Of a stretch of 64,000 bases of DNA, positions 5,267-62,718 are shown one piece after another. The translations under genes and the position numbers were made by a program. The notes beneath the pieces were generated by a model. It worked only from the letters and a program-made list of their open reading frames with translations. It made no database searches and was not told where the DNA came from. The stretch lies in assembly GCA_018398815.1 (NCBI GenBank), contig CM031616.1, forward strand, positions 23,467,404 to 23,531,403, in the 5' to 3' direction. The stretch is from Conus ventricosus (lineage: Eukaryota; Mollusca; Gastropoda; Neogastropoda; Conidae). Numbering within the stretch: position 1 is the stretch's first letter; every line of letters begins with the position of its first letter.

Positions 5267-6257
5267 TTACACACAATTAGAAGCAAGAATGATACACGCA
5301 TTCTACAAGAAGATCTAAACGCTTTACAAGAGTGGGAAAGAACTTGGAAAATGGAATGTAACAAACGCTCACTAATTAGATCAGATTATTCTATCCATAA
5401 TACTATTCTTAAAGAAACTAATGCTGCAAAATATTTAGGCGTGATTATAGATAGTCGTCTCAAATGGAAAGAACATTACAATTTAGTATGTAAGAAAGCA
5501 AATAACATCTTAGCTTTCTTACACAGGAATATCAATGACTGCCCCCAAAAGGTTAAAGACGACTGCTACAAAACACTGGTTAGACCAGTACTGGAATATG
5601 GTTGCTCAGTTTGGGATCCTTACCATCTAAAGGACATTGATAACCTTGAAAAGATTCAGAAGAGAGCAGCACGGTTCGTAACAGGGAACCACATCAGAGA
5701 AAAGGGGAATACTAGGAAGAACATGAGGAAATTAGAATGGAAACCCTTAGAAGAGAGAAGAGCTTTTATTAAACTTAACACCTTTTTCAAAGGCAGAGCT
5801 AAAGTAATTGATATTCCAATGGAACAACTAGTATTGAATAAAAGTAGCACCAGGAGTGGCGGTCAGTGTTATACCATACCTGCATCAAATATTGACAGCC
5901 ACTTACATTCTTTTTATCCCAGTTCTGTACGGCTGTGGAACTCACTGCCGGGTGCCATCAAGATTGCCACAAATGCAATCTCTTTTAAAAAACAAATTGA
6001 TACAACAGTTTTGAGATCTGCATATTGATGTTTTTCTATTTTTTACTTCCCAGATATTTTACTGTTAACTGGGCCTGAATTTGGCCATTGCTTTTAACTT
6101 CTTGAATATCGAGTGCGACCCCTTGTTGCCAAATTTGCTCCAGGGGCCAACAGTCTGAGTCGCACTATTTTATGTTATTTTTTTTACTTTTTAACATGCG
6201 CGCTGGTGACCTACTCGTTTTTGAGTGAACCAGTATTTTAGGAAGAAGAAGAAGAAG
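5267..6257 (+). mobile_element. 5'-truncated non-LTR retrotransposon (LINE), RT C-terminus and 3' end
   Basis: An open frame from about 5267 (Met at 5351) to 6028 encodes the region after the RT catalytic core: DTRILQEDLNALQEWERTWK, KYLGVIIDSRLKWKEH, LVRPVLEYGCSVWDPYH, IQKRAARFV and finally SVRLWNSLPGAI. This is the thumb and C-terminal region of CR1/L2/Jockey-group elements. An in-frame stop and loss of similarity just upstream indicate 5' truncation, usual for target-primed insertions. The 3'UTR runs to a (GAA)n tail at 6241-6257. The uninterrupted 225 codons suggest a fairly recent copy. Confidence 0.88.
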
Positions 6258-6580: not shown

Positions 6581-6604
6581 GTATAGTGCACTTAATGACT
6601 GGGG

Positions 6605-7830
6605 CATGGGTGAAACCACACGTCCGGAAAATCCGGAATCCGGATTTCGTATTGGTCGTTTGTCCGGAAATCCGGACATCGGCGTTCGTTGTGGTCGATT
6701 TTCCTTTTTTGGGTAGTTTTCGGTGAAGCTGCGTTCTTGAACAACTCGCGCATGCGCCGTCCAAGTTGTTGCAAAACTTGTCTTCCGATTTGCGCCATTT
6801 TCACGATAGCCTACAGCGTGTTCACGTCGCACGTCTTCACGTTGCAACGATCTTCTTCACGTCGGAACGATCCCGTCGACCTAGATCTAGTCTGAATCTG
6901 CTGCACTTCATTCTCTTCTTTGAGCACGATGCCGTTTGTGGCTGTGAATGAAGACACGTCGCTGATCGATGCTTCTGTCCCCAACAAATGGTCTTGGCGA
7001 TGGCTGGACGAAAGAGGTCCGGACAATGATGGCGAAATGGGAAAGGGCGACACATTTCTGACTTGGTGCCGCAAAACCACAGCTGCTGGCGTTGCCCGGT
7101 GCATCGTCTGCTTGCAGGACATCTAAGTAGGTATAAGAGGACACATGCTTCAAAGACTTATGAGCTGGTATACTACATTGGACATATGAATGTATAGACT
7201 TCCAGTTCCAGGATACCTTGCTTGAGCATCTGGGCTTGGACACTTTCTGCAAGGTTTTGTGTTAATATGTGCTGTATGGACTCCTTCATGAATGTGATCG
7301 TGTGGGCTATAAGAATACTGTTCTTGGACATCTGCGTTGTAAAGATTATTTGAACACCTGTGGGTTTGTTTGTTTTTTGGATAGTGGGCTTTTTCAATTT
7401 TGTAACTGCTCAGTGATGAACATCTGGACACCTGCTGCTGCTGGATAATGCTGAATACATTCCTTGGACAAGTAATGCACCAGTCTGTAAATAAATTCTG
7501 CATAACATACAAAATTATGCTGGTTTAGTGATTTTTATTATTCTTTAGGCCTATGATTCACATGTTTTCTTTTTTTTTTTTTTTTTTTGGGGGGGGGGGG
7601 CAATAAGTTACTCTGGGACACAACATTAGTCTTATTTCACTTATAAAAACATGCTGAAAGTACCTCAAAATGGTCTGATTTTAATAACGAAAATGTAAAA
7701 ATGCTTCAGCTTCAGGGGGCTTCGCCCCTGACCCCGGCAAGGGGCTCTGCCCTTGACCCCCGCAGGGGGCCTCCCGGCCCCCTGGACCCCCACCTTTCAG
7801 GATTTTCAATTTTCCTGGGTTTCACCCATG
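6605..7830 (+). mobile_element. Zinc-finger DNA transposon derivative A (1226 bp, 6-bp TSD)
   Basis: Inverted termini CATGGGTGAAACC (left) and GGTTTCACCCATG (right) are flanked by a perfect 6-bp duplication CTGGGG (6599-6604 and 7831-7836). Just inside the left end TCCGGA occurs five times (about 6623-6676). A plus-strand frame from ATG 6929 encodes PNKWSWRWLDER, FLTWCRKTTAAGVARCIVCL, the start of a BED-like finger, then stops. A three-hairpin array lies at 7713-7784 (separate entry). No transposase body. The termini and 6-bp duplication suggest a hAT-like group, but that is inference. Confidence 0.82.
7713..7784. other. Three consecutive hairpins near right end of element A
   Basis: Stem CAGGGG/CCCCTG at 7713-7730, stem CAAGGG/CCCTTG at 7738-7755, stem CAGGGGGCC/GGCCCCCTG at 7763-7784, separated by ACCCC-type spacers. 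The second stem differs from the first by a G-C to A-T pair swap that keeps pairing. A related array occurs at 44345-44418 in element C. Confidence 0.85.
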
Positions 7831-7902
7831 CTGGGGTAAAACTGTCTGTTAAATGAAAACTGTGAAGGGTTTTTTTTTTGTTCTCTTGTGGTTGTGAACT
7901 AT

Positions 7903-8288
7903 GGGAGTGTCTATATACACGCAATTACGTGTATCTACCTATATTCGAAATTTGCTATACGCACGTAATTGCGTGCACTGTTGACATAAATTTGCTATGT
8001 ACACGTAATGTCGAAAAAGTGCGTTCGCACACCGGCATCCCATTTGGTCTACTCCCATTTCGTCTCCAAAGCAGAATCGATGGTCTTTAGATTAGAGTAG
8101 GGCGAAGCCCGAGAGAGGACGAAGGACGAATGAACGAAGGCCGTTAGGCCAAGTCGTGCTCACACATTTCTGAGTAGGCGAAATGGGAGTAGACCAAATG
8201 GGAAGTAACCGATGTGCACGCAATTACGTGTACGCTACCACGACGAAATTTGCTATGTGCACGCAATTACGTGTATATAGACTCAGCC
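7903..8288. mobile_element. Mutator-like foldback MITE (386 bp) with 9-bp TSD
   Basis: Flanked by the direct repeat GTGAACTAT (7894-7902 and 8289-8297). Ends GGGAGTGTCTATATACACG and, inverted, GGCTGAGTCTATATACACG. Inside, palindromes of the type CACGCAATTACGTG recur about five times next to GAAATTTGCTAT, and a longer inverted pair (CCCATTTGGTCTACTCCCAT) brackets the centre. A 9-bp duplication is typical of Mutator-like elements (Merlin gives 8-9). Non-coding. Confidence 0.78.
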
Positions 8289-8297
8289 GTGAACTAT

Positions 8298-9604
8298 CCG
8301 TATTTAAACACTTCAGAGAATATTTCATATCAGTAAATATCTTTAAAGTCAACATATGACCATTGACCAAGTGGTGTCGTCGGCAGTTGCAGCTGATTGA
8401 AAGCACAAATATTTGAAGCCATTTCAGAAGTAGTGAGCCAACTGTTTTAAGTATTAGAAAAATAGTTAAAACCTGAAGTGCACAAGAAGCCTGTGAGTAG
8501 TGATAGGCCTATAAAAAATAATAAAGTGATTAGAATGGCATCAGCAGCCTCACCAGACAAGACTGACAGTACATTGATGATCAGATGGGGTGGTCGCACT
8601 GTCTCTTTCGAAAAGACATCCATTTGAAAATTTTCTTGTTCAACATATTTGTGACTAGCGTAAATTACACGTATGTTTTATTTTATCATATACTATGCAC
8701 TAATTATAAGTGAGATGTGTCAGCCATGCTATAGGGTAGGTTATTGAAAATGAAAATGAATAACTAAATTGATAAGATTTGCTATTAAAAGTGTGTGTTC
8801 ATAATAACTTGTGGATGGACAGCACATTCTGCCCATTCATGGCTTTCATTGCATTTATATTTACCTTGATTTTCAGGATGATGCGTGTGGCCATCTTTTT
8901 AAATGATATTGGACGACACTTCCATATAAATCTTACTAAAATGAGCAGAATCTAAAATTTTGCAGATTGAGTCTAATACAGGTTTGGATGATAGTTGATC
9001 AATGGACCTGGTGTATTCAAAGTAATTGTGGGTCACTGTGACCTACATTTCAAAAATAATATATGTTTCAACTCTGAAATCTCACATCTCAGTTATGCTG
9101 TCTTTGGAATACTGACAGCAAACTGGCACAGATCACAAGACATATTTAGGCTAACACTGTCAGCTATCCATTATTGGGGATACTATGGTTTAGTCATTAG
9201 TATTGATCTCTGCTTGGTGTAGTCTCCAACTGCAGCCAGTCAACAAAGATTTGGTATTTTTACATCTAACTTGTTGACAAAAGATGATTTACAAGCACAC
9301 TTTGCATGGTAAACCAAAAGATCTGATTTTTTTGTGAAAGTACAAATCACTAGAGTTTGAAAAGCTTCCACAGTAATGCTTTGCAGTGTGAACCCTCACC
9401 CCCATCATAAGAATTTTACAGGGGAAAATGAAAAAGCTTTTGTTTTCATTTGATAGAACACACATATTTGATATTTTGATTTATGTAAAGGTCGTTCAAG
9501 ATGGGATTATTGAGTAATTCAGGATGAGATCATTAAGTAACAGTGTAGTGGGTTTTTTTTTTTAAATCTAATGGTATTATTAAAATGTGATTGTTACATG
9601 ACAG
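8298..9604. other. Sequence immediately upstream of CKAP5 exon 1
   Basis: AT-rich and unique, without recognisable repeats or coding. A non-coding first exon and promoter are expected here or further left, because an acceptor-like ACAG sits at 9601-9604, but none can be proven from sequence. Confidence 0.4.
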
Positions 9605-9631
9605 GTAACTAGGCAGCCAGAGGTTGGCATC

Positions 9632-61395
<51,764 letters not shown>

Positions 61396-61818
61396 GTGAG
61401 GAGGGAAGGGCTCTTGGCTCGGGGTGGGGATGGTTGATCCTCATCCTTCAGGAGGAACTCGGTAATTCACTGTGAAGACATCAGACCTGCCTACCCTTCC
61501 GTAATCGTCCGTAATTTTACGGAAATTAACCCCCCATTACGGAGGTACGATTTTCCGTGCGAAATTACGGAAAAGAAAATTGAAAAACTACGCAAATTTC
61601 AGACTCGAAAAATTGTCGACTGCTAGACCTTTCCGAGACCGCAGAGTAACTTCCCTTGACTCAAGCCGAAACCACAGATGGTTCGGAACTTGCGATTGGT
61701 CAATGTGGTGCTGTGGGCCAACACGACACGCCATCACATCTGTGCGCGCCATTCGAAGCTTTTTGTTCAGCCATTGTAAGACAAAGTTTCAACCGATTTT
61801 TTGCCGGCGATTGTGAAA

Positions 61819-62235
61819 ATGGCGGAGAAATCTTCTAAACGTTTGCATGAAACCGATGACGAGGGTTCGAAAACCACTGTGCCACAACGGAAGAAGGCGA
61901 AGAAGCAAGTGTTCCGAAGTAAATACACGCGGACTTGGCCTTGTCATGGACCTGGATTTGTATACTCATTTCTGCTCGGTGTGCAATTCAGACTTCTCCA
62001 TCGGACATGGGGAGCAAATGACTGCAAGCGCCATATCTCGGGAAAATGCACAAAGAGACAGCTGCGAGTGCCTCCAGTCAGAAGATCACATCGTTGTTTA
62101 CGAAATCCAGCGAGAGCAGCCGTCAGACCCACACACGGAAGATCACCAACGCAGAAAGACTGTTGTGTGAGCTGATCTGCGAAAACAACTTGTCCCTGAG
62201 CTGTGCTGACAAGATAGTGGCGAAAATGAAAAGGT
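61819..62235 (+). pseudogene. BED-like zinc-finger frame of element D, frameshifted
   Basis: MAEKSSKRLHETDDEGSKTT, a basic stretch KKAKKQVFRSKYTRTWPC, then in another frame LYTHFCSVCNSDFSIGHG, ANDCKRHISGK and HKETAASASSQKITSLFTKS. With two single-base shifts the finger is CX2CX16HX5H. The downstream TNAERLLCELICENNLSLSC and ADKIVAKMK resembles the start of hAT-type transposase bodies. It ends in the palindrome at 62191. Confidence 0.68.
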
Positions 62236-62279
62236 CCTTTTCATTTTCGCCACTATCTTGTCAGCACAGCTCAGGGACA
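62191..62279. repeat. Perfect 44-bp inverted repeat with a 1-base spacer
   Basis: Left arm 62191-62234 (begins TGTCCCTGAGCTGTGCTGAC), spacer T at 62235, right arm 62236-62279 its exact reverse complement. It duplicates coding sequence of element D in inverted orientation. Confidence 0.95.
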
Positions 62280-62718
62280 CACACACAAAATATTTTTTTT
62301 TTTTTTTTTTTTTTTTTTTGTGGGGGGGGTTGTACATTAGGTTATTCATCAGTGGTGTCATCTGTGGTGACTGCTGTGTAAGTTACAAACTGTCAAGTAT
62401 ATCACCTTTGAATTGACCTGAAACTCCTGTCCTGAGTCCGTCATCTGCCATCATCCCAAGGTATTTTAATTCTGCTTTGTTGTTTTTGTTCCTTTTTTAC
62501 TGTTTATATTTTTTGTTAAAATGTTAAAAATGTAGTTGGAGTTTTGTACACATTATTTGTTCAATGTTAAAAATGTAGTTGGAGTTTTGTACACATTATT
62601 TGTTCAAAAACGCCGTGTATTACGCGTCCGTGGAATTACTGAAGGAAATGCAAAATTACTGAAAATCTCTGTGGTTATTACTGATGAGCACAACATGAGG
62701 TAGGCAGGTCTGAGACAT

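Follow-up and report, generated by a model that had tools for sequence, protein, structure and literature searches.

Four short elements in one Conus window

The 64,000-nucleotide stretch of the Conus ventricosus genome analyzed here, which we call the window (contig CM031616.1, positions 23,467,404 to 23,531,403), contains four short DNA transposon derivatives, elements A, B, C and D (Table 1). The 6-bp target duplication that marks hAT6 transposons is present and exact in 4/4 elements (CTGGGG, TAAACA, TCTTTT and AGACAT in A to D), and a duplication of 7 or 8 bp fails in every one. Short inverted termini starting CA, a start typical of hAT termini, are likewise found in all four, with lengths of 13, 10, 13 and 14 bp. 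The coordinates, exact 6-bp duplications and 10–14 bp CA-starting termini reported in a first-pass annotation of this DNA were reproduced for each element.

We scanned the window for an exact 6-bp duplication combined with an exact 10-bp inverted terminus at a spacing of 150–4000 bp, excluding low-complexity pairs. Eight pairs came out of the scan: A to D, one at 46402–46776, and three nested within a single long inverted repeat at 55.6 kb. Of the eight pairs, six start with CA (A to D, 46402 and 55718). Chance expectation, from 100 first-order Markov simulations, is a mean of 0.2 hits and of 0.01 starting CA. The left tips of A and C agree at 10/13 letters and those of B and D at 14/20; agreement of this degree has a frequency of 0.003 and 0.001, respectively, among random CA-starting pairs, values uncorrected for the six pairs.

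Table 1. Features of elements A to D (L and R give positions counted from the left and right tips; repeat cores are bracketed)
Feature	Position	Strand	Description
A left target duplication CTGGGG	6599..6604		right copy 7831-7836
Element A	6605..7830	+	1226 bp; 13-bp inverted termini CATGGGTGAAACC
A left repeats TCCGGA x5	6621..6678	+	L19-L72, CpG core
A truncated finger frame	6929..7123	+	stops after CX2C, half finger
A 3' subterminal block common to C	7697..7771	+	82% over 76 columns
A right repeat, AG/CT core	7795..7804	+	R36-R27
B left target duplication TAAACA	25827..25832		right copy 26904-26909
Element B	25833..26903	+	1071 bp; 10-bp inverted termini CATAGCTGCC
B left repeats GTCC[CG]G..	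25847..25934	+	L15, L65, L93
B intact frame	26174..26551	+	125 amino acids plus stop; hAT transposase N-terminus, CX2CX16HX5H finger
B right repeats GTCC[CT]GGAA	26828..26878	+	R76 and R35 (R35-R26)
C left target duplication TCTTTT	42864..42869		right copy 44466-44471
Element C	42870..44465	+	1596 bp; 13-bp inverted termini CAGGGATGAAAAC
C left repeats CTCCGCCG x4	42884..42944	+	L16, L25, L48, L67
C open finger frame	43158..43415	+	CX2CX16HX5H; Met before finger lacking
Inner stretch of C	43487..43950		464 bp; 52-bp inverted arms (94%), microsatellite-rich middle
D left target duplication AGACAT	61476..61481		right copy 62713-62718
Element D	61482..62712	+	1231 bp; 14-bp inverted termini CAGACCTGCCTACC
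D left repeats TCCGTAA x5	61496..61573	+	2 forward, 3 reverse; CpG core
D transposase N-terminus	61819..62235	+	finger split over three frames; broken
D palindrome	62191..62279		44-bp arms, 1-nt centre; sits where transposase similarity ends
D right repeats TC[AG]TAAT	62635..62686	-	R78, R58, R36 (R36-R27)

Finger frames and loss of the transposase body

B is the sole element with an intact frame from ATG to zinc finger. The first-pass annotation had placed a finger frame at the left end of all four; its description fits the intact frame of B and the truncated frame of A, holds for C as an open frame without a start, and fails for D, where the finger is not open. Reading from ATGGCGTCG at 43072 in C, a stop is reached after 10 codons. 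Measured from the left tip, the start codons of A, B and D lie at 324, 341 and 337 bp, respectively. Promoter-like motifs, which we take to resemble NRF1 and YY1 sites, occur near start codons at 6748, 26134, 26171 and 61816 (GCGCATGCGC in A, GCATGCGC in B and AAAATGGCG at the B and D start codons). A model of the B protein has a mean predicted local distance difference test score (pLDDT) of 73.4 and consists of short strands and helices; structure searches with it placed spliceosomal and TUT chains at the top and ZBED chains lower, none reaching E 0.001.

Outside these N-terminal remnants no transposase body was seen. Among the best 60 matches from tblastn of the relatives described below (P0001–P0010) against the window, those with E below 0.01 are confined to the N-terminal regions of B and D, and the next match outside them (E 0.020) is a lysine-rich stretch at 37.5 kb, in keeping with the first-pass statement that no element has a transposase body. 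Its further view of the elements as deletion derivatives of a transposase gene is supported as well, and P0001 presents a similar picture at the protein level. Residues 1–136 of this 173-residue protein align to residues 84–221 of P0002 and residues 134–167 to P0002 690–723; the two segments overlap by three residues (TLE/TLD) where they meet. P0001 looks like another body-deleted derivative, in which an in-frame loss brought the finger region next to the transposase C-terminus; the same shape could come from a predicted splice, P0001 being known from protein alone.

Two internal structures may record how the elements changed. The palindrome of D is of the scar type expected of a template switch during gap repair, and may have arisen in that way. 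Transcribed, it would form a hairpin whose sequence matches the transposase. The inner stretch of C is a possible nested insertion; C minus this stretch is ~1.13 kb, near the sizes of A, B and D.

The idea that the elements kept the finger exon survives as intact anatomy in B only; three of the four frames are broken. No evidence of selection was found. Because the start-to-finger frame is intact in B alone, finger retention marks the point at which deletion started and gives no evidence of function.

Evidence for hAT ancestry

A protein-database search with the 125-residue frame of B gave a single relative, P0001, with 82% identity over 70% of the query. With the D pieces plus P0001 as one query we obtained nine proteins of 572–822 amino acids, 9/9 of which have a precomputed match to PF05699, the hAT dimerisation domain; a rescan of five long relatives put this domain above its cut-off in 5/5. 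P0004 starts downstream of the finger. D alone matched seven of the nine long proteins by tblastn at E 2e-8 to 2e-5, with low-complexity and composition corrections off. A profile of B and its relatives recovered four PDB sequences at E 4e-13 to 8e-13, all transposase chains and two of them named Hermes, the matching region being the C-terminal part, contributed by the relatives and not by B. Against 1670 frames of the window, an N-terminal profile ranked B first, then three D frames, then C at rank 5 with an E of 0.004 (0.012 with B and P0001 removed from the profile); the next frame has an E of 1.2–1.3.

Several results weigh against reading all four elements as hAT. The half finger of A was not picked up by the N-terminal profile among those 1670 frames, a search with a chimeric A+C query gave no protein at E 1, and Pfam gave no family above its cut-off in the frames of A to D or in P0001. 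Weighing these against the long relatives with PF05699, the profile ranking and the DNA links between A and C, we assign B and D to hAT through their long relatives, the elements themselves retaining the N-terminus only; C is probably hAT, and A would belong there indirectly, by association with C, on DNA kinship only (the shared 3' block and tip letters). The claim that the four form one superfamily is thus upheld for B and D, supported for C by its profile match, and indirect for A. For C no long relative was found, and A had no protein match.

Searches for relatives in viral contigs (with P0001 and alignment A2) and in genome contigs (with B and A2) produced pattern matches and 0 confirmed relatives in 4/4 scans. 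The A/C 3' block had 0 matches in viral contigs, a loose B/D tip pattern had 40 loci there that we assume to be chance, and Rfam returned 0 matches at the gathering threshold.

Subterminal repeats of the left and right ends

A short repeat with a CpG core occurs within the first 105 bp of every left end, in the forms AATC[CG]GAWT (A), GTCC[CG]GGAA (B), TCTC[CG]CCG (C) and TTC[CG]TAAT (D). In B, C and D the first 10-mer of the repeat begins at L15, and in A two bases further in, at L17. The commonest CpG-containing 6-mer per 100 bp is present 5, 3, 4 and 5 times at the left ends of A to D and once at each right end. These left counts are matched by 0, 22, 6 and 0 of 2335 background windows and by 0, 28, 35 and 2 of 1000 shuffles of the same 100 bp; with any 6-mer allowed, 2, 236, 18 and 2 of the 2335 windows reach them, which makes B unremarkable. 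CpG observed/expected over the first 400 bp is 1.49, 1.13, 1.37 and 1.41 in A to D versus 0.51 in the window.

The last 120 bp of each element were scanned with a profile of its left repeats from which the core letters had been removed. Within the last 80 bp of the right ends of A, B and D, AG/CT replaces CpG at 6/6 sites, a transversion unlike the usual deamination product TG/CA. Over the last 200 bp of the four elements, eight sites score at least 7 (A R36 and R148; B R35, R76 and R93; D R36, R58 and R78), with AG/CT cores at six, AC/GT at two (A R148 and B R93) and CG at 0. The best right-end score was reached by 1/500 shuffles in A, 5/500 in B and 3/500 in D.

The left/right difference has stayed although the letters flanking the core largely diverge among A, B and D, so a conserved end-identity signal may lie in the core: one subterminal repeat would have a CCG version on the left and an AG/CT version on the right at fixed tip offsets. 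We put this forward tentatively, as an idea drawn from the letters of a few elements that is rather unlikely to hold as it stands. Against it, the best right-end match of C retains CG, with a score that 261/500 shuffles reach. Among 12 tests of a profile on a foreign end, the B profile scored 12.5 on the right end of D (R87, core GT), the same as its own best score, and 8.0 on that of A (core AG). The block CGTCCGTG common to the right ends of B (R93) and D (R87) contains CG; the cross-score on D through this shared block may reflect kinship. The left family was defined by CG content, which makes its CG core partly a matter of construction; the right-end cores were scored with the core omitted. 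The left/right pattern was first spotted by eye, and the sequences used to test it were those in which it had been seen; they come from few elements, with B and D related to each other.

Other features of the window

The host stretch holds a TOG-type exon; one frame of the window matches the TOG protein Stu2 (E 0.0037), consistent with a CKAP5/XMAP215-type animal gene. The 375-bp scan hit at 46402–46776 has an exact 6-bp duplication (TCTGCT) and a 10-bp inverted terminus, CAATGCCAAA, not easily produced by chance in simulation, and its left end lies inside what we take to be an exon; it is possibly a fifth element or a coincidence. The interval 55621–56671 (1.05 kb), with 110-bp inverted arms that are 97% complementary, is probably another terminal-inverted-repeat element, and a 212-residue frame inside it has no Pfam match. 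The 312 bp at 60516–60827, with TTAA duplications and inverted termini CCCTCTTGCA, are possibly a TTAA-type miniature element; similar letters occur on the minus strand near 37878.

Similar stretches starting CAGAGCTGACTAAYTGCC lie at 30695 (−), 36966 (+) and 54937 (+) and are perhaps copies of one repeat. A tandem array at 20140–21986 comprises five copies of a 369-bp unit with 83% matches. A G+C-rich block (up to 0.615) at 31000–36500 has long overlapping frames, three of which were scanned with no Pfam match. At 5267–6028 and 17381–17833 (−) we observe a remnant frame that we take to be reverse transcriptase-like, with no Pfam match, and an RNase H-like remnant (PF00075, E 0.0023, below its cut-off).

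Interpretation and alternative readings

Taken together, elements A to D are very probably non-autonomous, internally deleted hAT derivatives of the 6-bp-duplication, hAT6-like type. They would have moved in trans, by cut-and-paste, with transposase from full-length relatives elsewhere, and the N-terminal finger of that transposase would bind the subterminal repeats at the left end, as it does in Hermes. Deletions that began some hundreds of bases in from the left tip most likely left the finger sequence behind as a by-product, and if any element can still encode a small DNA-binding protein it is B.

As with the KP repressor of the P element, the finger might have been retained for function: a truncated DNA-binding protein would sit on the repeats at the left end and repress or tune transposition. 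The intact 125-residue frame of B, the related shortened protein P0001 (173 residues, finger region joined to C-terminal end) and the left-end repeats as candidate binding sites would all suit such a role. We consider it unlikely because the frame is broken in 3/4 elements, startless in C, spread over three frames in D and reduced to half a finger in A; moreover, the elements were noticed partly through the finger, so that its retention is biased by discovery. A separate origin of A and C from another 6-bp-duplication superfamily, leaving only B and D as hAT, appears improbable too. Dada has duplications of this length, the tips and finger of A and C differ from those of B and D, and the chimeric A+C protein query found no match; against this, the hAT N-terminal profile ranks the C finger directly behind B and D among the window frames, and the C left repeat sits at L15, the same offset as in B and D. 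For IS3EU, a further candidate source, the ends and the termini of >30 bp do not fit (PMC12730594). Chance pairing of short repeats in AT- and microsatellite-rich introns can be set aside almost entirely: the same scan does yield the CA-starting hit at 46402, perhaps spurious, but only 0.2 hits, 0.01 of them starting CA, are expected, and protein homology already refutes this explanation for B and D.

Relation to known systems

hAT families with 5- and 6-bp duplications are designated hAT5 and hAT6 (Repbase Reports 2007, Kapitonov and Jurka, as cited in PMC12730594). The first-pass annotation had called the 6-bp duplication unusual; hAT of this type is a known, established group, and A to D are unremarkable, gutted members of it. 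They resemble hAT6 in the 6-bp duplication, the hAT transposase origin (B and D) and the short inverted termini, and differ in having no transposase body, the comparison being by description. We rejected IS3EU for A to D: as described for fungal families, its ends are TAYGG..CCRTA and its termini >30 bp (PMC12730594), versus termini of 10–14 bp starting CA. ZBED genes, domesticated hAT genes, also encode hAT-derived finger proteins, but they are host genes (PMC3606216), whereas A, C and D are broken.

In Hermes, BED domains of several protomers bind the left-end subterminal repeats, for which phasing relative to the tip matters, and no BED domain is bound at the right end although it has repeats (PMC10368747). 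Elements A to D share with Hermes an N-terminal finger, asymmetric ends and several partly palindromic subterminal repeats near the left tip, and the Hermes repeats were likewise mapped in two versions, AAGT and AAGC; Hermes differs in its 8-bp duplication, against 6 bp here, and in its repeat sequences (PMC10368747). The fixed offsets and CpG-core left arrays fit the Hermes plan. The right version of the repeat would either be bound differently by the transposase finger or be weakened so as to keep the right end finger-free. In Hermes repeats lie near both tips and no BED domain binds the right end (PMC10368747), so a right repeat read by the finger would not fit that system and a weakened one would. 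Right repeats that are poor finger sites would be the simplest means of discriminating the ends. As CpG methylation is possible on the left version only, left-end recognition could be methylation-gated. The excerpts of hAT literature surveyed name no left/right difference in hAT subterminal repeats, and no search was aimed at that point.

How the ends are told apart is a question that stems from the one-sided BED binding in Hermes. If the left/right rule holds in other copies, it would give a sequence-level answer to how a hAT transposase with one type of finger distinguishes its two ends, and the methylation-gated model would become directly testable.

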